Shown here in pieces: positions 7,805-42,803 of a DNA stretch of 44,510 nt. The notes beneath the pieces were generated by a model that was not told where the DNA came from, did not search any database, and saw only the letters and a program-made list of their open reading frames with translations. Made by a program: the position numbers and the translations under genes. Source of the DNA: a virus; IMG/VR virus record IMGVR_UViG_3300020596_000041, positions 1-44,510 of that record, one strand, 5' to 3'. Every line of letters starts with the position of its first letter. Position 1 is the first letter of the stretch.

Positions 7805-7841
7805 TTGTCTAATACGAGTTTACAACCAATTCCTCTAAAAC
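7804..7841 (+). promoter_or_regulatory. late promoter-like element 2 (portal)
   Basis: GTTGTCTAAT (7804-7813), 25 bases after the core to TAAAAC (7836-7841), then 6 bases to ATG 7848. The box begins on the last base of the terL stop codon. Confidence 0.75.
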
Positions 7842-7847
7842 TTACTC

Positions 7848-9695: not shown

Positions 9696-9697
9696 CT

Positions 9698-12742: not shown

Positions 12743-12743
12743 T

Positions 12744-20957: not shown

Positions 20958-21549
20958 TGAACGGGACATTGAGCATCCCAGTCTTATCTCTTTTATCAAA
21001 AGTCATCCTGATATCGTAACAATGCTTGATGTGGGAGCTTTCTACAGCCACTATACGTATGCAGGAGAGGTGCGGAAACTTATTGACCGCTATGTGGGAA
21101 TAGACATTGATCCTGATCCTGAGACAGCCAAGATTCTCGATCATTACATCGTTGGAGATGTGAAAAAACATACAGGAAAATATGACTTGGTTGCCTGTGT
21201 TTCAACGATTGAACACTCAGGAATCTCCTCATATAAGAGGCAGGATTATCAGAAAGAGCAGCGAGCAGTATTCAAGAAGCTGGTTGAGTTGACAGGGAAA
21301 TATCTCTTTGTCACATTCCCCTATGGTACGTCTGGACATCATGCAGATGAGTTTGCCAATATAGACAAGGAGCAACTGGCGAAGTTTAGGGAGATGGTGA
21401 AAGGAAAGATTAAAACGAGGTTTTATTACTCTCCTGCTCCGCAGATTCAATATGCGTTTGAGGAGGTAGATGAAGATGAGGCAGGAAATGTTGAGTATAT
21501 TCAGAAGCTTGGTACACGATGCGTTTGTATAATGGAGGTGGACGTATAA
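20947..21549 (+). CDS. SAM-dependent methyltransferase-like protein
   Basis: 200 aa from ATG 20947, behind GGGAGGTG and overlapping the glycosyltransferase stop. TMLDVGAFYSHYTYAG is motif I, YVGIDIDPDPE the strand-2 acidic motif, and YDLVACVSTIEHSG matches the methyltransferase VLEH-type motif. Substrate unknown; operon position suggests sugar or glycan modification. Confidence 0.75.
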   Translation: MNYNERDIEHPSLISFIKSHPDIVTMLDVGAFYSHYTYAGEVRKLIDRYVGIDIDPDPETAKILDHYIVGDVKKHTGKYDLVACVSTIEHSGISSYKRQDYQKEQRAVFKKLVELTGKYLFVTFPYGTSGHHADEFANIDKEQLAKFREMVKGKIKTRFYYSPAPQIQYAFEEVDEDEAGNVEYIQKLGTRCVCIMEVDV

Positions 21550-22565
21550 AAGTCCTCGCAGATTATCATCATGGCAACCTCTATAACTCATTTCACATGC
21601 TCTTTGAGGAGAGGCTTGGGTATGAGCTATATCGTCCCATTGGGATGGACTGGCTGATTCATGGATTTTTCAAGATTGCTGAACCTTACGGAAATGCACG
21701 GGACACAGTAGATCAATATCTTGCGATTGATAATCGCGAATGGGATGCGTATAAACGATTGAACGGAAATTATCGTTTGGAGGATGATGTTTACCACATC
21801 TACGATAGGGAAAACGGATTCACGCATAAAGCAATAACGCTCTCAACTTTTAGAAAGATGCAGTTTGATCTAGTTATAGCTAGTTATCCTTCGCATGGGG
21901 ATTGGAAGGAATTGCTCAAGTTTCAACCGAACGCAAAGTTTGTCATGCAGCTTGGAAATGAGGGACAGAATACCGATGCGGCGAATGTTCTTTGTTCAAC
22001 AACTGAGTTTTTACCCAAGGAAAACCAGAGGGTTTACTACTACCATCAGGAATTTGACTTGAGTGATTATCGGTATGAGCCTCCCATCTCCAATAATAAG
22101 ATTAGCTCATTTGTCGTATTACTTCCTGAGCGAGAACGGTTCATAGGATTCAAGAAGGCAATGCCGGAATATGACTGGAAAGCATACGGTCCGGGAGCAA
22201 TAGATGGGATCATGGGAGATGGGAAGGGTATATCAACTGAGATGCGAAAGAGTGCTTTCGGCTATCACAACAAACCGCAGGGGGATGGATTCGGTCACGT
22301 AATCCACAAGTTCTACGCATCAGGACGACCTTGTATCGTCAACTACGGTGCATATGCTCACAGACTTGCAGGAAAACTTCTGATTCCCGATGTCACCTGC
22401 ATCAACCTCGATGAGCCATTTGATACGGTCTGCAAGAAAATACGCTTCTTTTCTCGTCCTTCGGAACATAAAAAGATGTGTAAGGCAGCGTATGTCCGTT
22501 TCAAGGAAGTGGTTGATTTTGATCGGGAAGCAAAAGAAATCAAAGATTGGCTACGAGTTGTCTAA
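21546..22565 (+). CDS. glycosyltransferase-like protein with apparent ATA start
   Basis: About 339 aa. The only well-placed ribosome-binding site (GGAGGTGGACGT) precedes ATA 21546, giving (M)KVLADYHHGNLYNSFHMLFE, a natural-looking beta-strand start; the in-frame ATG 21519 would put the Shine-Dalgarno inside the gene. The ATA overlaps the previous stop as GTATAA. C-terminal half has FGHVIHKFYASGRPCIVNYG, a GT-B style donor-site region. Its own stop TAA lies inside late promoter box 5. Confidence 0.7.
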   Translation: MKVLADYHHGNLYNSFHMLFEERLGYELYRPIGMDWLIHGFFKIAEPYGNARDTVDQYLAIDNREWDAYKRLNGNYRLEDDVYHIYDRENGFTHKAITLSTFRKMQFDLVIASYPSHGDWKELLKFQPNAKFVMQLGNEGQNTDAANVLCSTTEFLPKENQRVYYYHQEFDLSDYRYEPPISNNKISSFVVLLPERERFIGFKKAMPEYDWKAYGPGAIDGIMGDGKGISTEMRKSAFGYHNKPQGDGFGHVIHKFYASGRPCIVNYGAYAHRLAGKLLIPDVTCINLDEPFDTVCKKIRFFSRPSEHKKMCKAAYVRFKEVVDFDREAKEIKDWLRVV

Positions 22566-25241: not shown

Positions 25242-25286
25242 TGGTAGAATACTTTCAGGTCGTCTATGGCTTGAGGTTTAATATGT

Positions 25287-25346
25287 ATGGCGAATATAGC
25301 AATTTTCAAATCAGGACAATTTCCTCAATATCTACAAAGGAGGTGA
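25287..25346 (+). CDS. possible 19-aa peptide or 5' gene remnant
   Basis: MANIAIFKSGQFPQYLQRR ends on TGA within the ribosome-binding site of the next gene. The N-terminal sequence looks natural, so this may be the start of a gene whose remainder was lost, or a coupled leader. Confidence 0.3.
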   Translation: MANIAIFKSGQFPQYLQRR

Positions 25347-25349
25347 ATT

Positions 25350-25811
25350 ATGCCAAACGAAATACGAACAAAACCAATAACAAAAGCAAACTTCACAATT
25401 ACTTTGGCGTCACTCGCTAACGCTACAGCACGTCAATCAACTTTGTTGACCAACAGTAGCAATTATCCAGGTGCACTTCTCTATTTTAGAATTAAATCAA
25501 ATGCAGCTCCCACAGCAGGGTCAGTCTATGAGATTTATTTACTTAGAGCAGACGAGACACCAACACTTGCTGACGATAACGCTGGCGCGTCAGACGCAGC
25601 TATTACGATTGAAAATTCTCCATTACTAGGCACAATCGTCTTAACGGCAACAGCAACAAAGAATTTCTACGGAGTCTTTGATACATCAGCACTCGGCCCA
25701 TTAGGTCCGAAATGGGGAATCGCAGTTAAAAACAGTTCTGGACAAACGGTGTCTATAACTGAAGGGGATCACGGATACGAGTATGTTTACTACTTACCCG
25801 AAATCCAATAA
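25350..25811 (+). CDS. probable virion structural protein, 153 aa
   Basis: Strong ribosome-binding site (AAAGGAGGTGAATT). Beta-rich, Thr/Ser/Ala-rich sequence (LASLANATARQSTLLTNSS, then VYEIYLLRADETPTL), ending GYEYVYYLPEIQ. No catalytic motif. Lies in a run of structural genes. Confidence 0.6.
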   Translation: MPNEIRTKPITKANFTITLASLANATARQSTLLTNSSNYPGALLYFRIKSNAAPTAGSVYEIYLLRADETPTLADDNAGASDAAITIENSPLLGTIVLTATATKNFYGVFDTSALGPLGPKWGIAVKNSSGQTVSITEGDHGYEYVYYLPEIQ

Positions 25812-25817
25812 TGACTG

Positions 25818-26432
25818 ATGAAAATTGCGATTACTCTGGTGCACAACAAATCAGACGCTGAAAATGCGGCTCAAATTGAGTCGATGTTCTCTCTTGTTAC
25901 AGAACAAACTGAATTAATAGATGGTACAGATGACGAGGGCAACGTAATAATTGGTGCATTTGAGAGACATTTCTACACGCTAAACGATCTTGGTATCCCG
26001 CACGAAATTGAGTTCTTCCATGTAATCCCCTTTCAACCTGAAAACCTGAGCGATCCATATATCGCAGTCTTGCCAAGTAACCTCTCTTTACTTAAAGGAA
26101 GAAATGTACAGTATGGCAAAGGGGATGAGGATAAGATTGGCGATCATCCGAGATTTTACAATTGGGGGTTAAAACGTGCTACGGACTATGGAGCTGAGGC
26201 CGTAATTCATATGGAGGACTATAAAAAGTTCTCAGTTGCAGACCTAGCCTTCCAGCTTAATACACTTATTGATCCAAATGATAAAACTGAATTTTTAGAA
26301 GATAAAGCGGTTAAGATAACCACATTAGATTTATTAAAAGAAGTTGGTCAACTTGATGAAGCAAAAAGTAAAGAACAGGCAATTATTGATCTTAAACAAA
26401 GGAATATAGAAAAAGGAGGCAAAAATGGCTAG
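25818..26432 (+). CDS. hypothetical protein, 204 aa
   Basis: Unrecognised; unlike its structural neighbours it is charged and reads like a soluble globular protein: MKIAITLVHNKSDAENAAQIE opens as a Rossmann-type strand-helix, and HPRFYNWGLKRATDYGAEAVIHMED has the feel of a GT-A-like nucleotide-sugar domain with an MED acidic motif. That enzyme call is weak. Overlaps the next gene by 8 bases. Confidence 0.5.
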   Translation: MKIAITLVHNKSDAENAAQIESMFSLVTEQTELIDGTDDEGNVIIGAFERHFYTLNDLGIPHEIEFFHVIPFQPENLSDPYIAVLPSNLSLLKGRNVQYGKGDEDKIGDHPRFYNWGLKRATDYGAEAVIHMEDYKKFSVADLAFQLNTLIDPNDKTEFLEDKAVKITTLDLLKEVGQLDEAKSKEQAIIDLKQRNIEKGGKNG

Positions 26433-27588
26433 ATTATGGAGTAGCGGATTGGAATTAAATTCAACAACTTCTGCCATGGAGTTTGAATCCATTTCGGCAG
26501 GTGGAACGACTGTCTCTAGCATTATTAGAAGTGGCATATATGCTCTTAGATCTAATTCAACAGGATCAGGACAGCAAAGCAGATTCGCCTTTAAATCAGC
26601 AGCCACGGCAGACGGTTTTTATGTTCGTGCCTACGTGAGAATAGATTCATATGCTAATGCAATAGCTAGTTTTATTGCATTGTGGCAAGCAACGGGATCA
26701 AACCAAAAAGTTGCTATTCAAATGAATAGCGATGGAACATTGGAGCTATGGAACATAGAAGATTCGGCTCAAATTGGTTCTGATTCTTCGGTTTTATCCT
26801 TGAATACATGGCATTTATTGGAGTTGAAGGTTGATTGCACAACAATTGCAAGCACAGCAATTGAAGCCAAAATTAATGGGACTGCCTTTGCTTCTGGAAC
26901 AATAAATTTAGCAGCAGGAATATCAAGCATTCAATTAGGTTTTCAGGGATCTATTACGGGAGATTTATACTTTGACGACATTGCCATCAACGATGATACA
27001 GGCTCTTTCCAAAACTCCTGGCCTGGAGAAGGCAAAATTATCCATCTCAAGCCAAACGCAGCAGGAGATAATTCAGCATGGACGAATGACTATCTCAGTG
27101 TAGACGAGGTAACGCCTGATAATGCAACTACTCTTGTTTCCTCGAATACTCTTGATCAGATTGATGACCATAATATCGAAGCACCTGCTTCACTTGGTAC
27201 TAGTGACACCATCAACGTAGTTCAAGTGGGTGTGCGCTTTAATGGGGTAGGTGCCTCAGCCAACGCCTCATTTGTTCTTAGGATCAAAGCCTCAGCAAGT
27301 GGGACGGTTGAGGAGTCTAGTGCAATCACACCTTCAGATGCGACGTGGGTAACAAATGCAGCCGCAGCACCTCGTAATTATTCCCTCACTCTTTATGATC
27401 TCCCTGGAGGCTCTACAACTGCATGGACGAAAGCAGATCTTGAGGCAGCACAGATCGGGTATCGACTCAGCGCAACAAGTACAAACGCAGCTCAAGTATC
27501 AACAGTTTGGCTACTTGTGGACTACACACCAGTCTACGGGACACTCAAAGCGAAACCGCGCAGACCTGTGATTAACTGGAAAATATGA
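26425..27588 (+). CDS. probable receptor-binding/fibre protein with lectin-like fold, 387 aa
   Basis: GSGQQSRFAFKSAATADGFYVRAYVRI and GDLYFDDIAINDDTGS are the beta-sandwich style of concanavalin-like lectin/LamG domains (about residues 40-195); the C-terminal half (from about 210) is a second beta domain ending KPRRPVINWKI. Such modules bind sugars at phage tail tips. Preceded by AAAAAGGAGG and overlapping the gene before it; its stop overlaps the next start (ATGA). Confidence 0.6.
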   Translation: MARLWSSGLELNSTTSAMEFESISAGGTTVSSIIRSGIYALRSNSTGSGQQSRFAFKSAATADGFYVRAYVRIDSYANAIASFIALWQATGSNQKVAIQMNSDGTLELWNIEDSAQIGSDSSVLSLNTWHLLELKVDCTTIASTAIEAKINGTAFASGTINLAAGISSIQLGFQGSITGDLYFDDIAINDDTGSFQNSWPGEGKIIHLKPNAAGDNSAWTNDYLSVDEVTPDNATTLVSSNTLDQIDDHNIEAPASLGTSDTINVVQVGVRFNGVGASANASFVLRIKASASGTVEESSAITPSDATWVTNAAAAPRNYSLTLYDLPGGSTTAWTKADLEAAQIGYRLSATSTNAAQVSTVWLLVDYTPVYGTLKAKPRRPVINWKI

Positions 27589-28355
27589 TAACTAAAGACC
27601 TTGTATTAGATTTACCTTTTGCAGATGGTGGAACCAGTCGTTTTACGGATACTGTTACTGGAAAAGTCGGAAAATGGAATAATACACCTATTACAGGCTG
27701 GGACTCACGTTTGGGGACATATATGGATCTCAACGGGAGTAATCAGGATGGAGTACTCAACCTAACAGGAAAACAAGTAGCACTTCAACAGGTCACTATA
27801 GAGATTATCCACAGAGCCGATTCAGTCAGTCAATATAAAAGAGTTTTCCATGTTGGCGTAACGGCAGATCGTACCCACTCAATTGAATTTGACGATGGGT
27901 GGGGGTATGTTTTTAATGCTGGGTGGTCAGGAGGCGGAGGTTCTTGGTCTATCCCTAAGCCGGCTGTTGGAGATATTGATCACTTCTTCTGGACATACGA
28001 TTGGGGATCAACAGCCAACAATCCGATTATCTACAAGAACGGCATTTCACAGACCGTTACAGTGCGCGGAGCACCATCAGGTACTGCAAACAATGACTAT
28101 ACAAAGCTGACGATTGGTTCAGAATTAAGCACGGGTCAATACTGGGATGGGCGCATATATCTTGTTCGGATGTGGAGGCGTGTTCTTACAGCAGGCGAAG
28201 TAACACTTCTAACAAATAACCCCTGGGCTATTTATGGAAACAATCCGAAAGCATTTATGCAGGTTGGTAAGGCACCAGCCGCAGCAGGAGCAGGTTTTAT
28301 TCCTAATAGAATCTATAATGTGAATCAAGCAATCAATAGAAGTAATACTTATTAA
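27585..28355 (+). CDS. LamG/concanavalin-like domain protein, 256 aa
   Basis: Single LamG-like beta sandwich spanning about residues 5-220: YMDLNGSNQDGVLNL, QVTIEIIHRADSVSQYKRVF, NPIIYKNGISQTVTV and WDGRIYLVRMWRRVLTAGEV, the last being the classic LamG ending. Likely sugar-binding part of the adsorption apparatus. Start overlaps the upstream stop as ATGA. Confidence 0.75.
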   Translation: MITKDLVLDLPFADGGTSRFTDTVTGKVGKWNNTPITGWDSRLGTYMDLNGSNQDGVLNLTGKQVALQQVTIEIIHRADSVSQYKRVFHVGVTADRTHSIEFDDGWGYVFNAGWSGGGGSWSIPKPAVGDIDHFFWTYDWGSTANNPIIYKNGISQTVTVRGAPSGTANNDYTKLTIGSELSTGQYWDGRIYLVRMWRRVLTAGEVTLLTNNPWAIYGNNPKAFMQVGKAPAAAGAGFIPNRIYNVNQAINRSNTY

Positions 28356-32179: not shown

Positions 32180-32234
32180 TTATGAGAAATGAAAAGAGAC
32201 AATAAGAAGACATATGAAAGGAAGGTGAGTTAAA

Positions 32235-35200
32235 ATTTCAGCATACGCATCAAAATACCACATTGGACTCAACGGACAAGGCTATATCGTTTCTCAAAAG
32301 AACGGTGTCAGACAGTATCAAAAAAAACGCTCGCCAAGCTTTGTAAATAAGTTTGGTGGTGGGGACTCCTCATACCGTGATGCTACTTTCTGGCAGTATT
32401 TCGTACAAACCAACTGGAGAAATGGAGCAAAGCAGCTCAAGTTTGATGATCCGGGAAAGTACTGGAAGTCATCTGATGTTGACACCACCATCCTTGAAGA
32501 GCTGACTCTCTCAAGAGCTTTCGTCTCAGCAGGACGACTAGCAGCGGGAATCAAGGTCAACTGCATGGAAGCGTGGAGATCATCAACTAACTGGTGGGAC
32601 AACAACTATGGTTACAGGCAGCAGATAACTGTCACAGCGGGTGCTACAGCAATACCATCAGGGTATCCTGTCAAGATTACTATCGACAATGCTGTATTAC
32701 AGACAGCTACAAAGGTACGCTCAGACCGCAAGGACTGGAGAGTACTCTATTGGAATGGGTCAGCGTGGGTGAATATCTTCCATGACTACGTTGGTACGAC
32801 TGTGACGTTCTTTGCTACGCAGGCATCTATTTCAGCGACAACCTCTGATTCAAATTACTACGTTTACTACGGATACGCTGCCGAATCGACTACAAAGCAG
32901 GCATCGGCTGAGGCTGATTACAACGCTGTATACGGTATGTTCGGAACAACACCAGATGCGAACTCAGTCGGAATCTGGCACATGAGGGAGGGTACAGGGA
33001 CGACAGCAAACGATGACTCTACCAACTCCAATACCATGACATTTTCCAATTCACCATCGTGGAGGACAAGCGGGTATATAGGGCGTGATATAGCTTTCAC
33101 TGATGTTGGAAACCATTATTTTGAAATTTCATCAAGTGCTGTGTTTGATCTTGGTTCATTCACCATCGAGGGATGGTGGATCTTTGATGATTTCGGGGAC
33201 GGGGTAATGATCGCGAGAGCAGGTACTACCTCCAGTCAGGCATATGAGCTTGGTGTCTTTTCGGGAAACATTCGCCTTACTGTACTCAATAATTCAGGAT
33301 CTCCTAGCTTACAGGCAATTAACTACTTAACCTCAAACCTCACAACAGGAACGCTTTACCACATAGCTGCAAGTTATGACGGATCTTCTTCCATGAAGAT
33401 TTTTGTGAACGGCGTACAGGTAGCAATAGGAACATTTACCGCAGGAACGGAAACTTCAACAGGGGTCATTTATGGGGCAAGAGATAGATTCAATACTAAT
33501 GGGCAGCTTGACGCAAAGTTTAACCACATCCGCATCTCAAACTCAGTTAGAACCTCGTTTCCCTATGCGCTGTCGCAGGCAGATCAGCCGACAACTAACT
33601 ATGGAGCGGAAACAACAACACAACCCCCCTCAACCTCGTTTGATCTCTACGGGGGAGGCTCAGACGGTAAAGTCTACAAATGGGACGGGACAACGACATG
33701 GACCGAACAATTTGATGCCAACAGGCTCATCTGGTATGAGACAGGAAATGACTCAGACAAAATAGTCGGGGACACGGGCGGGACGGAAACCGCTCAGTCT
33801 CAGGGGTTTCAAGTAAGTGCTTCGCAAACGGTACGAACTGCATCATTATATATCAAAAAGAACGCAGGTACACCCGGAAACATTACGGTCAGAATTGAAA
33901 CAAATAATGCGGGAGTACCGTCAGGAACACTTGCTGATTCTAATGCTACGGGTACAATTACGGCTTTCTCAACCACCTCATATGGTTGGGTGACAGTAAC
34001 CTTTGCGGCGGCCTTTGTCCTCTCAGGTTCTACAACCTATCATGTTGTTCTTAAAACTGCCGCTGCTGCGAACGATACTAACTACGCTTGGGCCGCTGAT
34101 GGCTCATCTCCTACTTTCTCAACAGGTGCAATGTCTGCATCAACCGATGGAGGTGCTACGTGGTCTGCTGTTGCTGCTGCTGATGCCTTCTTCAGGTTGT
34201 TAGGACAAGGTACTGAGATAAACTCCATGCTTGTATCTTCCCTCTCTTCACAGAAGCTCTATGTAGGTGTCGGAAACCCAACAGGACAGACAAATGGAGA
34301 TGCCCGAATCTATGGGTTTGACGGTACAAACTGGACGCTCACTAAAGTCTTCGCAACCGCGACTGAATCTATGGTGACTTCAATGGCTGAGTACTCAGGA
34401 GCAACGAAGGCATATATCGGCATCGGACCGCAGGCAAAGATCTATGAGACGGCAGATTTCTCGACCTTCACTATATCAAAAGATGTCAATATACCTCAGA
34501 ATCCAGGGTATGTCTATGCTCTAAAGGAATATAATAGAGTACTTCACGCGGGTGGAGGATCACCTGAGTTTCTACCCACTCAATTTTATAACGGGTTTCT
34601 GAATACCTATGATACGACCTCGTGGAACATCCTCTACCCATTTGACTTCACAGTCATCAAGTCGCTTGAGTTTTATGATGCTTACCTCTTCATGGGGACG
34701 TATCACGGGCATCTGTATGTCTACGATACGTCAACACTTAATCCACTTTTTAACTTCAAAGATCAGTACGCCTTCCGTGTGACAATACAGGCGATGAAAT
34801 ACTTCGATGACAAGTTATACCTAGCACTCTATCCACAGCTTAATTCAAACGAAACCAATGTAGGCGTATGGCTCTTTGATAGGAGAGGACTATCCTTGGC
34901 TCATACCGTCTCAGGTGTAACGGGATATCGGTGTTTCTCGGTAGTGAATGGATTTTTGATGGTAGGAACAGGTGATAACGGATACATATACAAGCTTGAT
35001 CCAAATACTTACAAGACACAGGGTTGGGAGCAGTCTTCATACTTTGATGCCAATCTCCCATCAATCGACAAGCTCTATAACATGGTAACGATCAAGCATG
35101 ACGCTCTTGCTGAAGGACAGAGCATCCTCGTTTACTACAAGTTCAAAGAGACTGACTCATGGACGCTCCTTGGTACATCAAACACAGTAGGTGACACATC

Positions 35201-35588
35201 AAAGGAGATAACTTTCCCGACAGGTATTTATTCTAAAAAGATCACACTCAAAACGGAACTGAATACCACTGATGTTACAGCTTCCCCGAAGCTTACCGAG
35301 CGAATACTCCAGTACTCACTCTACCCGACAAGGAAATGGCAATGGACGATGAAGCTCAAAGCCAAGAAGAATATGAAGCTGCTTGATAATTCAGATGAGT
35401 CACGAACGGCTGAGCAGATTAGAGCTACCCTTGAAGATCTTCTTGTTACACAGCAGCTCTATAACTTCGTAGATGTTGATGGAACAAATTATAGCGTGCT
35501 GGTGAATGACATCGACAATACCTCATGGGTAATAAACCAAAACGATACAAACGAGGATGAGATTGTTGTAAGCCTCCTTGAGGCATAG
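32235..35588 (+). CDS. very large tail/fibre protein with apparent ATT start, ~1117 aa
   Basis: The first in-frame ATG is at 32565, but about 110 codons upstream read as natural protein (SAYASKYHIGLNGQGY, then YRDATFWQYFVQTNWRNGA) down to an in-frame TGA at 32226. No ATG, GTG or TTG lies between; ATT 32235 sits 7-8 bases after AAGGAAGGTGAG, so it is the likely start. Features: DUF2341-like opening (WDNNYGYRQQITVT), a LamG-type lectin domain (about residues 235-370: FTIEGWWIFDDF, DGSSSMKIFVNGV), a choice-of-anchor-like beta domain, and a C-terminal propeller-like region (KLYVGVGNPTGQTNGDARIYGF). Probably tail tip or receptor binding. Confidence 0.7.
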   Translation: MSAYASKYHIGLNGQGYIVSQKNGVRQYQKKRSPSFVNKFGGGDSSYRDATFWQYFVQTNWRNGAKQLKFDDPGKYWKSSDVDTTILEELTLSRAFVSAGRLAAGIKVNCMEAWRSSTNWWDNNYGYRQQITVTAGATAIPSGYPVKITIDNAVLQTATKVRSDRKDWRVLYWNGSAWVNIFHDYVGTTVTFFATQASISATTSDSNYYVYYGYAAESTTKQASAEADYNAVYGMFGTTPDANSVGIWHMREGTGTTANDDSTNSNTMTFSNSPSWRTSGYIGRDIAFTDVGNHYFEISSSAVFDLGSFTIEGWWIFDDFGDGVMIARAGTTSSQAYELGVFSGNIRLTVLNNSGSPSLQAINYLTSNLTTGTLYHIAASYDGSSSMKIFVNGVQVAIGTFTAGTETSTGVIYGARDRFNTNGQLDAKFNHIRISNSVRTSFPYALSQADQPTTNYGAETTTQPPSTSFDLYGGGSDGKVYKWDGTTTWTEQFDANRLIWYETGNDSDKIVGDTGGTETAQSQGFQVSASQTVRTASLYIKKNAGTPGNITVRIETNNAGVPSGTLADSNATGTITAFSTTSYGWVTVTFAAAFVLSGSTTYHVVLKTAAAANDTNYAWAADGSSPTFSTGAMSASTDGGATWSAVAAADAFFRLLGQGTEINSMLVSSLSSQKLYVGVGNPTGQTNGDARIYGFDGTNWTLTKVFATATESMVTSMAEYSGATKAYIGIGPQAKIYETADFSTFTISKDVNIPQNPGYVYALKEYNRVLHAGGGSPEFLPTQFYNGFLNTYDTTSWNILYPFDFTVIKSLEFYDAYLFMGTYHGHLYVYDTSTLNPLFNFKDQYAFRVTIQAMKYFDDKLYLALYPQLNSNETNVGVWLFDRRGLSLAHTVSGVTGYRCFSVVNGFLMVGTGDNGYIYKLDPNTYKTQGWEQSSYFDANLPSIDKLYNMVTIKHDALAEGQSILVYYKFKETDSWTLLGTSNTVGDTSKEITFPTGIYSKKITLKTELNTTDVTASPKLTERILQYSLYPTRKWQWTMKLKAKKNMKLLDNSDESRTAEQIRATLEDLLVTQQLYNFVDVDGTNYSVLVNDIDNTSWVINQNDTNEDEIVVSLLEA

Positions 35589-35636: not shown

Positions 35637-35936
35637 ATGAAAGAAAGATATTCAGCATCAGACGCTAATGAAATCGCAGTCAAAGCAGCTATAGACTCAG
35701 CAACCAGTAACGCAAAGATGGGTGAACAAATAACATATCTTGTCAAAGGATTTGATATTTTGAATATGAAAGTCGATAGCTTCTCGAATGCGTATGTCTC
35801 GGTACGGGATTTTACGCAGATAGAGGATCGAGTAAAACAAGCTGAGAATAAGGTTGAGACAATGCAGAAGTATCTTTGGCTAGGTGTGGGTGGACTTACT
35901 GTTATAACTTTTTTCCTAAAGTTTTTCGTAAAATGA
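35637..35936 (+). CDS. XhlA-like holin-associated protein, 99 aa
   Basis: Coiled-coil body (IEDRVKQAENKVETMQKYL) ending in one C-terminal membrane helix (about residues 80-97, LWLGVGGLTVITFFLKFF). This matches the layout of hemolysin XhlA-type proteins paired with phage amidases. Its stop overlaps the amidase start (ATGA). Confidence 0.65.
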   Translation: MKERYSASDANEIAVKAAIDSATSNAKMGEQITYLVKGFDILNMKVDSFSNAYVSVRDFTQIEDRVKQAENKVETMQKYLWLGVGGLTVITFFLKFFVK

Positions 35937-36796
35937 ACATACAATGGGTTCCAAGCCCAAACTTCGATAAGAATAGACTGCCTATTACGCACATCTTCAT
36001 TCATTGGATTGTAGGAAATCTTGCTGCTGCTGATGCACAGTTCAAGAAAACTACCCCAGGAACCTCAGCCCATTATGGGATAGAGGATGACACAATACAC
36101 CAATACGTTAAAGATGATGCAGTTGCTTATCATGCAGGGGTATATTCGTGGAATCAAAAAAGCATTGGCATTGAACATTCAGCAGCACCAGATAGATTAG
36201 CCTCTGAGAAGACCTACAAGACATCGGGACAGCTTATTGCCGAGATATGTACCAAATACCACATTCCGTTAAATCGTGAGCATATCAAGGGTCATAAAGA
36301 GGTACGCAACACACAATGCCCAGGCACGATGGATATTGATAAGCTCATTCGGGTAGCTAAGACGTTTATGGGAGTCGATCCGCAGATTGAGCTGGATAAA
36401 CTTCGCACAGAGCGAGATCGTAATTGGACCTACTTTGCCGGACTTTGCGACATCATGCAAGTACAGCCTAACTACGATATTGCAGCGGGAGAGTTAAAGA
36501 AGCTTGTTAGCTTTCAGGATGTATTGTTTCATAAGGAATCGCAACTGAAAGATGCTGATAAGAAAATCTCAGATCTTCAGATAGACCTAGTGAAGATAAC
36601 AAAGGAACACGATAAGACAGTAGCCGAGAATACAAGCCTTGTCGAAGAAGCTAGGAGACAGAGTGACCGTATCAGCAAGCAGGAAGGGCAGATCAACACA
36701 GTCTCAGAGCAGCTAGATCAGTTGAAAAAACAATGCAGTATGACTGTTCTGACAGGTTATAAGAAACTAATCTATGACCTGTTAATAAAGGGGTGA
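35933..36796 (+). CDS. N-acetylmuramoyl-L-alanine amidase (endolysin), Amidase_2 type
   Basis: 287 aa. Cleaves the bond between MurNAc and L-Ala of peptidoglycan for host lysis. N-terminal catalytic domain (about 1-150) with zinc ligands His24 (FIHWIVG), His120 and Cys128 (GHKEVRNTQCPG), plus AHYGIEDDTIHQYV and SIGIEHSA typical of the family. The C-terminal ~110 residues are a long coiled coil (KKISDLQIDLVKITKEHDK) instead of a usual wall-binding domain. Start ATG 35933 overlaps the holin-associated gene. Confidence 0.9.
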   Translation: MNIQWVPSPNFDKNRLPITHIFIHWIVGNLAAADAQFKKTTPGTSAHYGIEDDTIHQYVKDDAVAYHAGVYSWNQKSIGIEHSAAPDRLASEKTYKTSGQLIAEICTKYHIPLNREHIKGHKEVRNTQCPGTMDIDKLIRVAKTFMGVDPQIELDKLRTERDRNWTYFAGLCDIMQVQPNYDIAAGELKKLVSFQDVLFHKESQLKDADKKISDLQIDLVKITKEHDKTVAENTSLVEEARRQSDRISKQEGQINTVSEQLDQLKKQCSMTVLTGYKKLIYDLLIKG

Positions 36797-36800
36797 TGCT

Positions 36801-36863
36801 ATGGGAATATTATTAACCATATTAGCGATACTTATTATTTTAAAACTCTTTGGAGTTATATAA
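36801..36863 (+). CDS. 20-aa hydrophobic membrane peptide
   Basis: Almost wholly hydrophobic after the start (GILLTILAILIILKLFGVI), so a single membrane segment. Begins just after the amidase; a small holin-like or lysis-timing peptide is possible but unproven. A weak GGGGTGATGCT precedes the ATG. Confidence 0.45.
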   Translation: MGILLTILAILIILKLFGVI

Positions 36864-36879
36864 AGGAGGTGAGTTATTT

Positions 36880-37071
36880 ATGAGTCTTTCAAATACCATT
36901 ATTAAGGTTATCGGTATTATTCTTGCGATTGTGGGACTTCTTCTTATTCTTTCAATTGTAGGACTAGGGTTTGGAGTATCACTTCAGCCTTGGTTTCTCG
37001 CATTGATTGTAGGAGTCGTTTTCTTAGGAGCTGGAATATATATTATCCGAGGGGGAAATTTTACCCTCTAA
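36880..37071 (+). CDS. small two-helix membrane protein, probable holin
   Basis: 63 aa with two hydrophobic helices (about residues 8-28 IKVIGIILAIVGLLLILSIVG and 36-56) and a short loop, the size and layout of class II holins, which permeabilise the membrane for the amidase. Strong AAAGGAGGTGA before ATG 36880. Holin assignment is by position and topology only. Confidence 0.6.
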   Translation: MSLSNTIIKVIGIILAIVGLLLILSIVGLGFGVSLQPWFLALIVGVVFLGAGIYIIRGGNFTL

Positions 37072-37084
37072 AGGAGGTGAGTAT

Positions 37085-37324
37085 ATGAGACCTAGTAAGT
37101 CAATGTCACTTAATCATACCGACTGGAAAAATATTCTTCGCGGTGGTGTTATCTTTGTTGCGCCTGTTATCTTAATTTATTTTGCACAAGTCACAGGAGC
37201 ATTATCAGTTGAGGGTCATGCCTTCTCAGTGAGAGATTTTATTCCCTCTACTTTTACACAGGGAAGCATGGTGCTTTTCGTTCTAAATAGACTGACAGAT
37301 ATACTTCGTAAATTTGTTAGCTAA
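37085..37324 (+). CDS. small membrane protein of the lysis block, 79 aa
   Basis: Begins MRPSKSMSLNHTDWKNILRGG; one clear hydrophobic helix near residues 20-40 (GGVIFVAPVILIYFAQVTGAL) and a weaker one near 57-70. Similar N-terminal layout to phage holins of the HI1416 or dit-like groups, not firmly placed. Preceded by AAAGGAGGTGA; its stop overlaps the next ATG. Confidence 0.6.
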   Translation: MRPSKSMSLNHTDWKNILRGGVIFVAPVILIYFAQVTGALSVEGHAFSVRDFIPSTFTQGSMVLFVLNRLTDILRKFVS

Positions 37325-37794
37325 TGGCAGTCGAGAAATATATCCGTGGTAAAAAGGATGATTGCTCTCACCACGGCAGACGTTCAGAAGTAAGACGGCT
37401 GGCAGAGAGCAACAATCAATTAAAGGAATATATGAGTCACGAGCGATATACACCAGAGGATAGAACTAGAGTGCCTTTCCGCAATGAGGAGTGGCATGCG
37501 TTGAGTGGTAGAGAGAATCGTATGCCTAACCAGTTCGGGCAACCAGACGCAGCAGTAGTGTTTGTTTATGGACTAGGAGAAGGATCTGGGGGCTTTAGGC
37601 ATACAAACCATCATGGAGAGGCTTTCATCGTTCCTGGTGTGAACTGTGACGCTGAGGAGGCATCCCAATTAGCGGCAAGGGGGGCTGTTTTTCCTCTTGA
37701 GATAGCGCAACCAGTACCTGCTGCATCATTTGAAACCGAAGCACAATGGTTTAAACCTATCCATAATCTCAGCGATGACAGGAAAAATACGTAA
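37324..37794 (+). CDS. hypothetical protein, 156 aa
   Basis: Unrecognised. N-terminal half is rich in Arg, Glu and His (HHGRRSEVRRLAESNNQLKEYMSHERY); then a globular part AAVVFVYGLGEGSGGFRHTNHHGEAFIVPG. No known catalytic motif identified. Directly overlaps the preceding membrane gene by one base, in the lysis operon. Confidence 0.6.
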   Translation: MAVEKYIRGKKDDCSHHGRRSEVRRLAESNNQLKEYMSHERYTPEDRTRVPFRNEEWHALSGRENRMPNQFGQPDAAVVFVYGLGEGSGGFRHTNHHGEAFIVPGVNCDAEEASQLAARGAVFPLEIAQPVPAASFETEAQWFKPIHNLSDDRKNT

Positions 37795-37939
37795 GCGATA
37801 TATATGCCGAACGTGCCAGGTGAAGTTTCAGAGCCTTGTTGTAATTCCATTTCGCTATAGAGTGTGTCTGAAGTGTACGGAGAAAGTAGAAGAAACTTTC
37901 GATGACTTCATGAGTAATCTCTTTACGAGAATCACCTAA
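37775..37939 (+). CDS. small zinc-ribbon protein, 54 aa
   Basis: MTGKIRKRYICRTCQVKFQS, then CLKC about 20 residues later: two CxxC pairs, probably a zinc ribbon, with a basic start and acidic tail. Overlaps the previous gene by 20 bases. A fragment resembling an integrase N-terminus lies antisense to its 3' part; only one of the two can be favoured, and this one has the clearer motif. Confidence 0.55.
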   Translation: MTGKIRKRYICRTCQVKFQSLVVIPFRYRVCLKCTEKVEETFDDFMSNLFTRIT

Positions 37940-38044
37940 CCATGCTATAAAAATCCTAGCTCTCGAATGACGCGTAGCAATAGTTCCAGCACTAAGCCTC
38001 TGTTTGCTGGACATGTGCTGAATTAGGTCTTTCTCGTTAATCAT
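37880..38044 (-). pseudogene. possible remnant of a tyrosine recombinase N-terminal domain
   Basis: From ATG 38044: MINEKDLIQHMSSKQRLSAG, TIATRHSRARIFIAWLGDSR, KEITHEVIESFFYFLR. The 'LSAGTI..RHSRARIFIAWLG...ITHEVIESFFYFL' pattern resembles the core-binding SAM-like domain of phage integrases. No catalytic domain follows; the frame then runs antisense to a zinc-ribbon gene. A decayed fragment or coincidence. Confidence 0.4.
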
Positions 38045-38260
38045 ATTTGTCGTCTATACAATATTTTCCTAGAAAATTATACGAACATGCAAGGTAGACA
38101 AAGAAAGTCACAATAGACAAAAACTGTATCAACATCCTTATGAGACAGCAAAATCATTCTTTTTATAACATTGATATAGTTTGACATCTTGACTTTAAAA
38201 CACCAAACATGCCATTATAGGAGTCAGAAACTTCTTTTCTTCTATATTCAAACAGCACTA

Positions 38261-38279
38261 TTGACAGCGAGGCTGTCAA
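38261..38279. promoter_or_regulatory. 8-bp inverted repeat overlapping a -35 box
   Basis: TTGACAGC-GAG-GCTGTCAA, perfect arms around three bases. The left arm is itself TTGACA, so binding would occlude the rightward promoter. Confidence 0.5.
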
Positions 38280-38290
38280 GAGGCTAGTAA
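38261..38290 (+). promoter_or_regulatory. candidate rightward early promoter
   Basis: TTGACA (38261-38266), 18 bp, TAGTAA (38285-38290). The -10 is imperfect; start would be near 38297, giving a short leader with AAGGAT before ATG 38323. Confidence 0.4.
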
Positions 38291-38322
38291 AGCTAGAAGT
38301 TCCGAAGTAAGGATTCTAGCAT

Positions 38323-38523
38323 ATGTCCCATAATAAACGCAAATATAGGAAATACGACTCTTCGCAGGATGCCTTTCTCAAGTTGGTTGAGGACCTTCAA
38401 ATGGCACTCCACTATCTCCCCACCGTCGAAGATCTTTTTGAGGGATTCGGCATGCCGCATCGAACAACGTACAACAAGCTGAAGAAGCGCAAGGAAGCAA
38501 AGGAAGGTAAATCACAGCGATGA
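38323..38523 (+). CDS. small basic protein, possible DNA-binding, 66 aa
   Basis: MSHNKRKYRKYDSSQDAFLK opens it; about residues 35-58 (VEDLFEGFGMPHRTTYNKLKKRK) could be a helix-turn-helix. First gene right of the control region, so a regulator is plausible but unproven. Overlaps the next gene (ATGA). Confidence 0.55.
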   Translation: MSHNKRKYRKYDSSQDAFLKLVEDLQMALHYLPTVEDLFEGFGMPHRTTYNKLKKRKEAKEGKSQR

Positions 38524-38714
38524 AATACATAGCAATCAACAAAGCAGACTACCTTATTGCGTCAACCATTCGGATCATGAATATTTCGGAAATAGGACTA
38601 AAACAGGAAAGGAAACTATCTCACGCAGTATCACTTGATGTGTTGGCTGCGGTGAATGAAAACATCGAAGCAGATGAGGAGTTTGAACAGCGCATGGAGG
38701 AATCATCTGAATAA
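38520..38714 (+). CDS. hypothetical protein, 64 aa
   Basis: Unrecognised; Ile/Ala/Glu-rich helical protein (NKADYLIASTIRIM, VSLDVLAAVNENIEADEEFEQR). ATGA overlap with the upstream gene. Another frame overlaps its 3' end. Confidence 0.6.
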   Translation: MKYIAINKADYLIASTIRIMNISEIGLKQERKLSHAVSLDVLAAVNENIEADEEFEQRMEESSE

Positions 38715-39135
38715 CGAAGAGGTACAGTCACAGACAGAGAATCTGAACGAAGCTCCGGCATCGGTCAACACAAGAATGAAAAGTGTGAATGGCTTTGTCT
38801 ATCAATGGACAATACGGGATGAGAAAAACTCCAACCTTTTTTTCAAGATAAAAAAAATGGAAGAGAAATGGCTGGAATCAGGATTTACTCCAGTTGAACA
38901 GGCAACAGGCCGCTTTCCTATAAAACCGAAAGAGTATGTCGAGAATAGAGCTTGTCCTAAATGCGGATCAAAACTCGTCTATTCGATAAAGAAGGACGGA
39001 ACAAAGTTCATCAAATGTGAAACGAATAGGTGGAATGCCGCTACGAAGCAGGCAGAAGGTTGCTCATTTATTGAATGGCCTAATCAAAATACGACTCCTT
39101 CAGGTCACAGCAATGGAAACGTGGAGGACTATTAA
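38656..39135 (+). CDS. protein with four-cysteine zinc ribbon, 159 aa
   Basis: Central helical part (FFKIKKMEEKWLESGFTPVEQ) then a ribbon: CPKCGSKLVYSIKKDGTKFIKC followed by C about 17 residues later, resembling topoisomerase-type ribbons that bind single-stranded DNA. Start uncertain: ATG 38656 or 38674, neither with a clear ribosome-binding site, both overlapping the previous gene. Possibly a recombination or single-strand DNA protein. Confidence 0.6.
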   Translation: MKTSKQMRSLNSAWRNHLNNEEVQSQTENLNEAPASVNTRMKSVNGFVYQWTIRDEKNSNLFFKIKKMEEKWLESGFTPVEQATGRFPIKPKEYVENRACPKCGSKLVYSIKKDGTKFIKCETNRWNAATKQAEGCSFIEWPNQNTTPSGHSNGNVEDY

Positions 39136-39154
39136 TTTCTTAATTTCGGTTGAG

Positions 39155-39191
39155 TTAGGGGGGGGAGGTATCTCTCTGCTCCCCCTCCTAA
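39155..39191 (+). terminator. strong GC-rich hairpin, possible terminator
   Basis: TTAGGGGGGGGAG (39155-39167) pairs with CTCCCCCTCCTAA (39179-39191), 13 bp with one G-U, loop of 11 bases. No U-tract follows; may act as attenuator or RNA-stability element before the next gene. Confidence 0.55.
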
Positions 39192-39207
39192 TACATAGGG
39201 TTGGACT

Positions 39208-39522
39208 ATGAAAACACAACAAGATAAAGTTTTACAGTTACTAAAAGCATCAGGATCTAGGGGTGTTAATTCCTACGACCTTACATATCTCCACGCAATT
39301 AAACAAGCACCGACTCGAATCTCCGAATTAAAAGAACAAAATCATCGGATATTTTCACGCACAGAGAAGAATAGAAGCGTTACCTACATTTTACAAAGCA
39401 ACTTTGTCCCCACCACCAAGAACAAAGAAACTGATGAAGAATATGTTTGGATATACGAAGGCGATTCAGCGAAGCGGATATTGCTATCGAAAATAAAACC
39501 GATACAGACATCAATAGTATGA
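39208..39522 (+). CDS. probable helix-turn-helix protein, 104 aa
   Basis: MKTQQDKVLQLLKASGSRGV, NSYDLTYLHAIKQAPTRISE, LKEQNHRIFS is the typical winged-helix-style opening of small phage proteins that use a helix-turn-helix (about residues 5-48). Likely a transcription or replication accessory; the target is unknown. About 250 bases without a clear gene follow. Confidence 0.65.
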   Translation: MKTQQDKVLQLLKASGSRGVNSYDLTYLHAIKQAPTRISELKEQNHRIFSRTEKNRSVTYILQSNFVPTTKNKETDEEYVWIYEGDSAKRILLSKIKPIQTSIV

Positions 39523-39772
39523 AGAGTTGGGATAAAGCAGCGTAGATTAAACGCAACCTACGGCATGAGCGCAGTATGGGGATGAAACAAGCCGTTTCCC
39601 GTCCAATAAACCATATCGAATTTTGAAGCGAAACAGAGGGGATAAAGTCTACCGACATCGTTTCTATAAAACTAAAGCTCTGGTATATCATACTTCTCAG
39701 TTAAGAAGACATTAGGTAACAGTAGGGGGCGTGAGCCTTAGTTGATTGATACAGTAAGTATTATTTAAGTAC
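39523..39772. other. 250-base gap without a clear gene, some structure
   Basis: No convincing gene. One frame (about 39567-39711) is open for over 40 codons but lacks a start codon at its beginning. Short inverted pairs are present: CGTAG/CTACG (39541-39545, 39558-39562) and GAAAC/GTTTC (39584-39588, 39594-39598). Could be a leader RNA or a decayed gene. Confidence 0.35.
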
Positions 39773-39919
39773 ATGAATATTATCAATGATTTAAAAGAAA
39801 GATTAGAGAAGTTAAGGAAGGAATGGGTAGATCGTCCTGCAATGAGAAGTCTTACTGAGAAACGGGCGAAGATACTAAAAACCTTGTTGGAAAAGTATGA
39901 AGGAAAAGAAATTGCATAA
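39773..39919 (+). CDS. small helical protein, 48 aa
   Basis: Charged, alternating Lys/Glu/Leu sequence (NDLKERLEKLRKEWVDRP, then LLEKYEGKEIA), so probably a coiled coil. No known family. Overlaps the next gene by 23 bases, where the following ATG begins inside it. Confidence 0.55.
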   Translation: MNIINDLKERLEKLRKEWVDRPAMRSLTEKRAKILKTLLEKYEGKEIA

Positions 39920-40025
39920 GTGTTTTGATTGCAAAGCCCTAGTTCATATGAACGCGGATAGATGCAAGCCCTGCTCAGAAGACCATAGGGAGCAGAAAGC
40001 AAGAGAGTACTCAAAAAGTAAATGA
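39897..40025 (+). CDS. small zinc-ribbon-like protein, 42 aa (paralogue)
   Basis: MKEKKLHKCFDC ... DRCKPCSED: two CxxC pairs (residues 9/12 and 24/27). Closely resembles the protein at 1625-1777, which supports both. Its stop overlaps the rusA start (ATGA). Confidence 0.7.
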   Translation: MKEKKLHKCFDCKALVHMNADRCKPCSEDHREQKAREYSKSK

Positions 40026-40390
40026 AAAATTGTATTTTTATCATCCCTGGAGAATTAACTGATCTGAATACGTATATAAACGCTGAGAGAACAAATCGTT
40101 ATAAGGCAGCGAGTATCAAGAAAGCTGAAACGCAGCGAGTTTGGGGAGAGTTAGAGAATCAGAAGGTAAAACCGATTAAGGGAATAGTTGAGATGATCTG
40201 TACATGGTATACCAAGGATCTCAAGAAGGATAGCGACAATGTAGCATTTGCTCTCAAATACATATTAGATGGCATGGTGCTTGCGAAAGTGTTGCCGGAC
40301 GATAGCAGGAAGTATACAGGCTCGATTGTGCATATATTCGATGTTGACGCTAAGAAACCAAGAGTTGAGATAGATATAACGCAGAGATAA
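40022..40390 (+). CDS. rusA: RusA-family Holliday-junction resolvase
   Basis: 122 aa, normal for RusA. Cuts four-way DNA junctions during phage recombination/replication to free DNA for packaging. The family core is evident: KKDSDNVAFALKYILDGMVL and VLPDDS, with acidic residues Asp70, Asp72, Asp83 and Asp93/94 in the right places and a basic N-terminal half. Overlaps the small zinc-ribbon gene (ATGA). Best-identified DNA enzyme in the early region. Confidence 0.88.
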   Translation: MKNCIFIIPGELTDLNTYINAERTNRYKAASIKKAETQRVWGELENQKVKPIKGIVEMICTWYTKDLKKDSDNVAFALKYILDGMVLAKVLPDDSRKYTGSIVHIFDVDAKKPRVEIDITQR

Positions 40391-40405
40391 TTTTCATACT
40401 GTCCT

Positions 40406-40525
40406 ATGAAAAACAATCGAACAGCAAAAGCTGTGTACAGGGTACTTGAGTATCTTGCGAAAAGATATAACAGTCAGATGTGTAGAGATCTCTGCTATAG
40501 AATCTATTGGGAGTTTACAAAATGA
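40406..40525 (+). CDS. hypothetical small protein, 39 aa
   Basis: Basic and Tyr/Arg-rich: MKNNRTAKAVYRVLEYLAKR then YNSQMCRDLCYRIYWEFTK. No recognised family. First in a chain of ATGA-overlapped small genes. Confidence 0.5.
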   Translation: MKNNRTAKAVYRVLEYLAKRYNSQMCRDLCYRIYWEFTK

Positions 40526-40674
40526 ATATAGTTAGTTACATGGCAGGACTTTTAACTTTTCCGGCAATACTCGTTGGGCTGAGTATCTTATTAGGAGCAA
40601 TCAGTAGTGTTGAGGATAGGGAGCGAGAAGAAGAATTATTCGATTGGAAAAATTCGTATAAGGATAAGCTATGA
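40522..40674 (+). CDS. small single-helix membrane protein, 50 aa
   Basis: Hydrophobic segment at about residues 4-27 (VSYMAGLLTFPAILVGLSILL) followed by an acidic/basic tail (EDREREEELFDWKN). Start and stop both overlap neighbours as ATGA. Confidence 0.55.
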   Translation: MNIVSYMAGLLTFPAILVGLSILLGAISSVEDREREEELFDWKNSYKDKL

Positions 40675-40745
40675 GGTGTATTTTAAATGTAATTATGTTT
40701 TTTGTTATTCTTTTTAGCTTGGCTGTAGTTTGGGTATTGTTATGA
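40671..40745 (+). CDS. 24-aa membrane peptide
   Basis: MRCILNVIMFFVILFSLAVV is nearly all hydrophobic, so a lone membrane helix. Coupled to both neighbours by ATGA overlaps, which supports it as real. Confidence 0.5.
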   Translation: MRCILNVIMFFVILFSLAVVWVLL

Positions 40746-41269
40746 AAAAACTAACACTTAAATACTACTTCCATATCCACCACGAAATACTTGTTGAGGC
40801 TTTAACCGAGCCTCTCAAGAATAGGATTAAATACATTAAGGAGAATAAACCAAAGGATGAGATTGAGTTAAGGCTAAAACTTATCAAACCTGTCAAGGGT
40901 AAGTTACCTAGTGAGCTTATTAAAGCAGACCAAGCACGGGATAAAGCAAACCAAGCATGGGGTAAAGCATACCAAGCATGGGATAAAGCAAACCAAGCAT
41001 TCATTAAAGCATACCAAGCACGGGGTAAAGCAAACCAAGCATGGGGTAAAGCATACCAAGCATGGGATAAAGCAAACCAAGCATTCATTAAAGCATACCA
41101 AGCACGGGGTAAAGCAGACCAAGCACGGGATAAAGCAAACCAAGCATGGGTTAAAGCACTAGAAGATAACATGCCAGCTCTTGAGAAGTTACATAAGATT
41201 GAGTGTGGATGTGCTTATGACTTTAAAAAGAAAACTATCTTTACTAAAGAGAATGGGTTGGAGAAATAA
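40742..41269 (+). CDS. heptad-repeat protein (11 x KA-QA--), 175 aa
   Basis: Residues ~61-137 are eleven copies of a 7-residue unit [KA(D/N/Y)QA(R/W/F)x], with a larger four-unit block repeated. Predicted as one long amphipathic helix or coiled-coil rod; flanked by an N-terminal domain MKKLTLKYYFHIHHEILVEAL and a C-terminal part with Cys (ECGCAYDF). Start ATG 40742, overlapping the previous stop. Function unknown. Confidence 0.7.
   Translation: MKKLTLKYYFHIHHEILVEALTEPLKNRIKYIKENKPKDEIELRLKLIKPVKGKLPSELIKADQARDKANQAWGKAYQAWDKANQAFIKAYQARGKANQAWGKAYQAWDKANQAFIKAYQARGKADQARDKANQAWVKALEDNMPALEKLHKIECGCAYDFKKKTIFTKENGLEK
40922..41152 (+). repeat. 21-bp tandem repeat array, 11 units, within a gene
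   Basis: Unit AAAGCAnACCAAGCAnnnnn(T), in frame with the heptad protein. An 84-bp superunit of four is itself repeated, suggesting recent slippage or unequal recombination. Confidence 0.85.
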
Positions 41270-41271
41270 CT

Positions 41272-41355
41272 ATGAAAAAATGGACAACGCAATCAGGAGA
41301 AGACATAACTACAACTGATATTAAAAGTCCGATATATCACAAAAATAGAGAATAA
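41272..41355 (+). CDS. hypothetical peptide, 27 aa
   Basis: MKKWTTQSGEDITTTDIKSP then IYHKNRE. No family. Starts two bases after the heptad gene; no strong ribosome-binding site beyond GGAGAAAT. Confidence 0.4.
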   Translation: MKKWTTQSGEDITTTDIKSPIYHKNRE

Positions 41356-41371
41356 CTAACGTACTAAATAT

Positions 41372-41599
41372 ATGAACTACACAGAAAAAGGATTTATTTG
41401 GAAAAAAGGCAAACGAGCATGTGTTGTTTTAATTAGTAATGAAAATAAAACCTATCAAGTTGCTCTCAATAATGAGCAAATGGACTCTTTGATTTTTATA
41501 TTGCCACAATTATTCGATGACCACGTAATAAAAGTATTAGAAGAACCGCTGGATATTACTTTAGACAAACCATTATCAGACAAGGAGAAGAAAGCATGA
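41372..41599 (+). CDS. hypothetical protein, 75 aa (paralogue of the right-edge gene)
   Basis: FIWKKGKRACVVLISNENKT YQVALNNEQMDSLIFILPQL is a compact alpha/beta region; the tail is ITLDKPLSDKEKKA. A strong paralogue is encoded at 44308-44510, sharing most positions. The DNA for DKPL carries the shared TAGACAAACCATTA repeat. Function unknown. Confidence 0.65.
   Translation: MNYTEKGFIWKKGKRACVVLISNENKTYQVALNNEQMDSLIFILPQLFDDHVIKVLEEPLDITLDKPLSDKEKKA
41561..41575 (+). repeat. 3'-end seam repeat, copy 1
   Basis: TTAGACAAACCATTA encodes the LDKPL tail of the preceding gene. TAGACAAACCATTA recurs near the ends of three other right early genes. Confidence 0.75.
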
Positions 41600-41958
41600 T
41601 TCAGCAAACAATAATTAAGTTTTATAAAGCACCAAAAATAGGCGATTATCTGGACATAATGCTTGTTAAGCATGAAATGGGCAAGTCATTTAATGGATAT
41701 TTAGAAAAGGGGAGAATTGTTTGGGAGGATATTAAAGAGGGTGCGGAGTGGAGAGACTACACGCCATTTATGGTTATTCCACATTATTTTCCCATTCAAG
41801 AACTTATTGACGCATTAACAGACAAAGCAGTTTTGCCGAGCACTATACAGGTAGAAACAATCGCTGAACTTAGCGCCACCAAATACCATCTAGAAGATAT
41901 GAGAAAGCTAGTATTTAGAGAGCAGGAATCATACGAGAAGAAAGGCCAAGATGAATAA
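41596..41958 (+). CDS. hypothetical protein, 120 aa
   Basis: Unrecognised. Begins MIQQTIIKFYKAPKIGDYLD, then IMLVKHEMGKSFNGYLEKGR; charged, mixed fold, with a helical C-terminus (ISATKYHLEDMRKLVFREQE-like). Start overlaps the previous stop as ATGA. Confidence 0.6.
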   Translation: MIQQTIIKFYKAPKIGDYLDIMLVKHEMGKSFNGYLEKGRIVWEDIKEGAEWRDYTPFMVIPHYFPIQELIDALTDKAVLPSTIQVETIAELSATKYHLEDMRKLVFREQESYEKKGQDE

Positions 41959-42085
41959 CTTTATAAGCCCAGCAGAGGCAAAGAAAATGGGTATAAACAT
42001 AAAGTTTAGGAGAATTAAAAGGCTTGGCAGACCAGCAAAAGTATATGGAAAAAGACAAAGAGGGTGGGTAGAAAGGCCATTGTGA
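41951..42085 (+). CDS. hypothetical basic protein, 44 aa
   Basis: Very basic (INIKFRRIKRLGRPAKVYGK) so probably nucleic-acid binding, with a GRPAK stretch similar to an AT-hook core. Overlaps both neighbours. No known family. Confidence 0.5.
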   Translation: MNNFISPAEAKKMGINIKFRRIKRLGRPAKVYGKRQRGWVERPL

Positions 42086-42369
42086 TGAATAACTTAATAG
42101 CTGAGAGTATCAAGGATCTTGAGTTCATCCTAACTGAGTGGGAGGGGGATACCAACGCTCTACTAGGTGCCGTAAGAGTAAACGCTAGATTGGACAGAAT
42201 AACCCCCATCCTCACAGCCATAGCAGAAAAGACGAGGGAGGAAACATTATGGGAAGTCTCAACTGAAGTTCATAAGATGACAAATAAATATGAGGAGGGA
42301 TACATGGCAGCCGTGGTTGATGTTAAGTCAATCCTTGCCTCTCTCGATGCAGACAAGGAGAGTAAATAA
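42085..42369 (+). CDS. hypothetical helical protein, 94 aa
   Basis: MNNLIAESIKDLEFILTEWE opens a fully helical protein (ARLDRITPILTAIAEKTREE, VVDVKSILASLDADKESK). ATG 42085 overlaps the previous stop as TGATG. No known family. Confidence 0.6.
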   Translation: MNNLIAESIKDLEFILTEWEGDTNALLGAVRVNARLDRITPILTAIAEKTREETLWEVSTEVHKMTNKYEEGYMAAVVDVKSILASLDADKESK

Positions 42370-42370
42370 T

Positions 42371-42523
42371 ATGAAAACTAAACAAGAACAGAAAGAAGAG
42401 GCGATGGAAGCCTATGAAGCAATAGTGAACCCAATAAACAAATTCTACGATGCAATAGTAGACCCCGCAACGAAAGCCTACATAGCAAAGTGCAAAGAGA
42501 TAGACGAACAGGAGGAGGAATAA
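42371..42523 (+). CDS. hypothetical helical protein, 50 aa (KQEQK family)
   Basis: MKTKQEQKEEAMEAYEAIVN is repeated in style by the gene at 43729 (KQEQKREALEAYEAI), so these are paralogues. Highly charged helix. Function unknown. Confidence 0.55.
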   Translation: MKTKQEQKEEAMEAYEAIVNPINKFYDAIVDPATKAYIAKCKEIDEQEEE

Positions 42524-42524
42524 T

Positions 42525-42803
42525 ATGAAAACATTCGGATTTAAGACAAGAAAAGAATTTAGGGAGAAGTTTCCAGATAGATGTGCAGATACCAAAGAAG
42601 CGGAATCCTTCCTCTCCGAATCAATCCAACAAGCAGTAGCAGAAGAAAGGGAGAGGTTGGTGAGGGAGGTAAAGGAAATGAGGATAAGATTTAACAAAAA
42701 GAATATATTGATGTATAAAATCGAGATAGAAAATTACAATATGGCGATTGATGATGTTATCAGTTCCTTCCTAGACAAACCATTAACAGACGGGGAGAAA
42801 TAA
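42525..42803 (+). CDS. hypothetical protein, 92 aa, with DKPL tail
   Basis: MKTFGFKTRKEFREKFPDRC then a Glu/Arg-rich helix (QQAVAEERERLVREVKEMRIRF). The C-terminus SSFLDKPLTDGEK carries the shared DKPL(T/S)D seam. Its TAA stop is the first three bases of the start-linked repeat of the next gene. Confidence 0.6.
   Translation: MKTFGFKTRKEFREKFPDRCADTKEAESFLSESIQQAVAEERERLVREVKEMRIRFNKKNILMYKIEIENYNMAIDDVISSFLDKPLTDGEK
42772..42785 (+). repeat. 3'-end seam repeat, copy 2
   Basis: TAGACAAACCATTA, encoding the DKPL tail, 15 bases before the start-linked repeat at 42801. Confidence 0.75.

Follow-up and report, generated by a model that had tools for sequence, protein, structure and literature searches.

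The locus and its gene

The DNA analysed here (the window) is a virus record of 44,510 bases with a G+C content of 41.6%. It carries a large tail-like gene that, in its first 110 or so codons, offers the ribosome none of the start codons ATG, GTG or TTG. The features needed to follow the argument are these.

16193 to 17152, plus strand: major capsid protein (PHROG 1357)
21546 to 22565, plus strand: gene of 339 codons with an ATA start, placed by homologue starts and by the Shine-Dalgarno sequence TGGAGGTGG (-14.0)
32182 to 32205, plus strand: intergenic short frame of seven codons (MRNEKRQ, then stop) behind an ACGGAGG site (-9.5, spacing 6)
32217 to 32229, plus strand: Shine-Dalgarno sequence AAAGGAAGGTGAG (-13.7 kcal/mol, spacing 5 to the ATT at 32235)
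32226 to 32228, plus strand: in-frame TGA that closes the short frame ATG 32214-AAA-GGA-AGG
32235 to 32237, plus strand: proposed ATT start codon, which pairs with the ATG or GTG starts of homologues and follows the Shine-Dalgarno sequence
32235 to 35588, plus strand: tail-like gene in full, from its open frame, its coding score and two ends common to homologues
32235 to 32564, plus strand: N-terminal domain of about 110 codons without ATG, GTG or TTG (six-homologue profile; tblastn)
32565 to 32567, plus strand: first in-frame ATG, which a standard gene caller would choose (1007 aa)
33108 to 33554, plus strand: LamG/ConA-like lectin domain (Laminin_G_3, Pfam PF13385, E = 3.6e-16), residues ~292-440 counted from the ATT
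35022 to 35585, plus strand: C-terminal domain, residues ~930-1117 (BLASTP E 4e-17; phmmer domain E down to 1e-18)

After the TGA at 32226, the frame from 32229 to 35588 is open for 1119 codons, or 1117 counted from the ATT. Its domains run in the order N-terminal, DUF2341-like, LamG/ConA-like, a propeller-like middle, and C-terminal. When the full 1117-aa protein was given to hmmscan, no Pfam family was returned, while a fragment gave the LamG domain at 3.6e-16; length-related filtering may hide domains in long proteins from this program. AlphaFold models of the N-terminus had pLDDT values of 36 and 43, too low for a fold search, and a search of the PDB found no relative, its best match (a defence protein, E 0.018) being judged chance.

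A coding region without a usual start

The first-pass annotation had described codons 32235 to 32564 as natural protein lacking ATG, GTG and TTG, and this description holds. No in-frame ATG, GTG or TTG precedes 32565, and the near-cognate codons of the lead are, in full, ATT 32235, ATT 32262, ATC 32286, ATC 32490, CTG 32502 and ATC 32550. Such a lack is by itself only mildly unusual, because codon frequencies give a chance of about 0.9% that 109 gene codons would be without these three, and 172 of 6148 windows of 110 codons inside real genes (2.8%) are without them. Among good coding frames of the window, the long lead is unique, at 112 codons against 25 for the runner-up.

The region is also written as genes are written here. 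In its own frame it has a codon-usage score of 0.155 bits per codon, where real genes have 0.141 +/- 0.073 and wrong frames within genes reach at most 0.058. The remaining five frames over the same bases score between -0.20 and -0.68, with 3-7 stops apiece.

Homologues place the start

Relatives of this N-terminus are not easily found. With the window protein as query, searches of IMG/VR, GTDB genomes and GenBank phages gave no usable N-terminal relatives; two weak matches, one on a capsid gene (L007) and one on a gyrase-like contig (MT839101), were judged chance. The family was instead reached with a hand-made motif, WQ[YH][FW][AV]Q..W..G, and was then tested by BLAST and by profile. In six IMG/VR records, the motif drew out an N-terminal domain of clear kinship; all six were confirmed by a search based on their alignment, which added L076. 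The seven homologous phage records (L074, L076-L081) form an uncharacterised tail-like family.

Against the relatives, the window's N-terminal sequence gives tblastn E values from 2e-10 to 3e-12. A profile built from six homologues, with the window sequence left out, has a single match among the 1299 frames of the window (E = 2.2e-13), and its envelope opens on the ATT codon, residue 3 of the open frame, with the aligned core running from residue 8. In pairwise BLAST with L077, L079, L080 and L081, the ATT as residue 1 lies opposite the ATG or GTG at which each of these genes begins, and in the alignment of six homologues, five have a start codon at this position. The exception (L066/L078) carries the N-terminal domain inside a longer protein. 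Thus, an ATT start with an N-terminus of about 110 residues, as first proposed, is now strongly supported by the aligned starts and the profile.

The family resembles the window protein in its N- and C-terminal domains, in its start position and in the capsid family upstream, relatives of the capsid protein lying ahead of the tail gene in 7/7 records (blastp E down to 6e-29). The C-terminal domain is common to the five complete relatives (E down to 1e-18), L074 and L077 being cut off. Where complete, the relatives are about 630-660 aa long (943 in L078); the extra length of the window protein comes from a large insert with the DUF2341-like stretch and the LamG domain. The ATT start also sets it apart, the relatives compared having ATG or GTG at that position and ATN in none. 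All of them are, however, distant, at 26-29% identity to the window protein, and the collections searched may leave out near-identical records.

Since every relative has the N-terminal domain, a start at the ATG at 32565 would remove an entire conserved domain. What usual gene calling would miss is the start and not the gene, which would be called as a 1007-aa protein from that ATG.

The initiation signal at ATT 32235

The good ribosome-binding site ascribed to the ATT is there, in the form of the 13-base AAAGGAAGGTGAG, and the initiation region around the codon is unstructured (z = +0.4). Every plus-strand position of the window was scanned for an ATN codon with a Shine-Dalgarno sequence of -12 or stronger, at the head of a long frame and with no canonical start near. 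Just two sites emerged, ATA 21546 and ATT 32235. In 0.95 Mb of surveyed phage DNA, strong Shine-Dalgarno sequences before ATN codons arise by chance, within genes or antisense to them, and that survey contained no second frame as long as this one in which canonical codons are absent upstream and the next strong one is 110 codons away.

Just upstream of the tail gene, the short frame MRNEKRQ is possibly a leader peptide or a remnant. Ribosomes might also be imagined to arrive at the N-terminus from upstream, through readthrough of the TGA at 32226 from the in-frame ATG closely upstream at 32214, or by a frameshift from the mini-frame ATG 32189-TAA 32233, whose stop ends one base ahead of the ATT; this is highly improbable, as TGA is an ordinary stop in the window, closing 6 of 16 large genes (so that recoding was dropped), the ATG at 32214 has a Shine-Dalgarno sequence that is nearly nil (-2.9, spacing 14), the ATG at 32189 sits 13 bases from its own, and homologues aligned at their starts show no sequence conservation ahead of the ATT position.

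A second ATN start, and whether start choice is relaxed

The first-pass annotation had counted an ATA start alongside the ATT. That start, identified here as ATA 21546, is as well supported as ATT 32235: in 18/18 cases, viral relatives, again found by motif, begin with ATG or GTG no more than one codon away from the ATA. An ATG nine codons upstream has almost no Shine-Dalgarno sequence (-3.0) and would add a stretch found in no relative. Because the preceding gene ends in a TAA that the ATA overlaps, translational coupling may help here. In re-initiation, Shine-Dalgarno sequences and short distances enhance the process (PMC2268962). For the product of 21546-22565, putatively glycosyltransferase-like, a Pfam search matched no family.

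From two such starts, relaxed start-codon choice in the phage or its host had been suggested. This suggestion fares poorly. Starts were tallied for 47 other genes, giving 44 ATG and 3 GTG, so that ATN codons begin 2 of some 49-58 genes. Among frames of at least 100 codons in a sister phage (G001, IMGVR_UViG_3300020057_000069), no credible ATN start was found; of its two candidates, one is antisense and the other, a sense-strand ATT with a strong Shine-Dalgarno sequence, is a chance site internal to the terminase. The tally and the sister phage argue against a general relaxation, in a small sample and on the assumption of a shared host. It is doubtful that phage or host discriminates unusually weakly among start codons, or that strong Shine-Dalgarno sequences with AUA and AUU are a deliberate low-output setting for glycosyltransferase-like and tail-tip genes.

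Was the codon, or the domain, lost?

Two further explanations accept that the domain once began at 32235. In the first, ATG stands there in the true or dominant sequence, the ATT being a consensus error or a minority or strain variant, and the start is ordinary. The ATT was, after all, read from one consensus sequence; MSAYASKY would be a natural beginning, homologues carry ATG or GTG, and a single base (32237) would differ. However, the same contig has the ATA start, whose position is likewise backed by homologues and whose Shine-Dalgarno sequence is strong as well, and two independent third-base errors among some 58 start codons are unlikely. Base quality looks good as well, because the adjoining 2.2 kb (35637-37795) are 99.86% identical to an independent assembly. 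We consider this explanation unlikely, if worth keeping in mind.

In the second, a mutation truly removed the ATG, and little or none of the N-terminal domain is made, leaving either a 1007-aa form or a defective phage. The ATG at 32565 is in frame to begin that form, with a weak Shine-Dalgarno sequence (-6.6). Against this, codon usage in the domain is intact, stops have not accumulated, the Shine-Dalgarno sequence before the ATT is still strong, and the position and sequence pattern of the domain are kept in 7/7 relatives. Loss of the domain is thus improbable.

Genomic surroundings

The sister phage is 95-100% identical to the window in the lysis and downstream genes and in one tail-side segment, and has an entirely different structural module; between the two phages, module swapping is strong. 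Modules were compared over 25280-28293 and 35637-42659 of the window, against L002, L019, L020 and L004, the last of which has the same junction at ~28293. Internal repeats lie at 40919-41158, where several self-similar matches to the sister phage overlap. Just ahead of the capsid gene, in 6185-15404, five genes are without a PHROG match, one of 267 aa and four large ones of 539-886 aa; the four large genes had no Pfam match above threshold.

Probable initiation at AUU

We place at roughly three in four the probability that the gene encodes a virion protein, of the tail or tail tip, whose N-terminal domain is translated from the AUU at 32235. Location of the product in the virion is, of course, a prediction from sequence. 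Initiation would proceed as follows. The long Shine-Dalgarno sequence, in an unstructured and A-rich leader, would place the 30S subunit, and fMet-tRNA would pair imperfectly with the AUU, so that the initiator residue would be fMet. The long Shine-Dalgarno sequence and open leader would probably compensate for the AUU sufficiently to give a modest output, probably below that from AUG, a level that would fit a tail component present in few copies. The ancestral codon was very likely ATG or GTG, and the change to ATT would have been tolerated because the Shine-Dalgarno sequence is strong.

We infer use of the AUU in cells, and reduced output from it, by analogy with known genes. IF3 holds back initiation at AUU, a poor start codon, and the known natural cases are low in output and reliant on strong Shine-Dalgarno sequences (PMC5472188, PMC13009471). 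In E. coli, infC has an AUU start (PMC5472188) and pcnB is cited as another case (PMC13009471). Like the tail-like gene, each begins a long conserved protein with AUU and offers no canonical codon as an alternative where the start is conserved; unlike it, they are cellular genes. The AUU of infC gives autoregulation by IF3, whereas the tail-like gene carries no hint of feedback. In S. aureus, cvfC1 (AUU) and ccpN (AUA) likewise have extended Shine-Dalgarno sequences that direct the start to such codons, the output in poor medium being some 10% of that from AUG (PMC13009471). Relatives of these two genes keep the unusual codon, whereas the known, distant relatives of the tail-like gene have ATG or GTG.

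Anchored by homology, the locus would thus exemplify AUU initiation in a structural gene of a phage whose genome also contains an AUA case. It illustrates that standard gene callers can silently drop a whole conserved domain of a tail protein, here one common to all relatives. Scanning for strong Shine-Dalgarno sequences and ATN codons before long start-less leads, and comparing these with the starts of homologues, could gauge how frequent such initiation is in phages.
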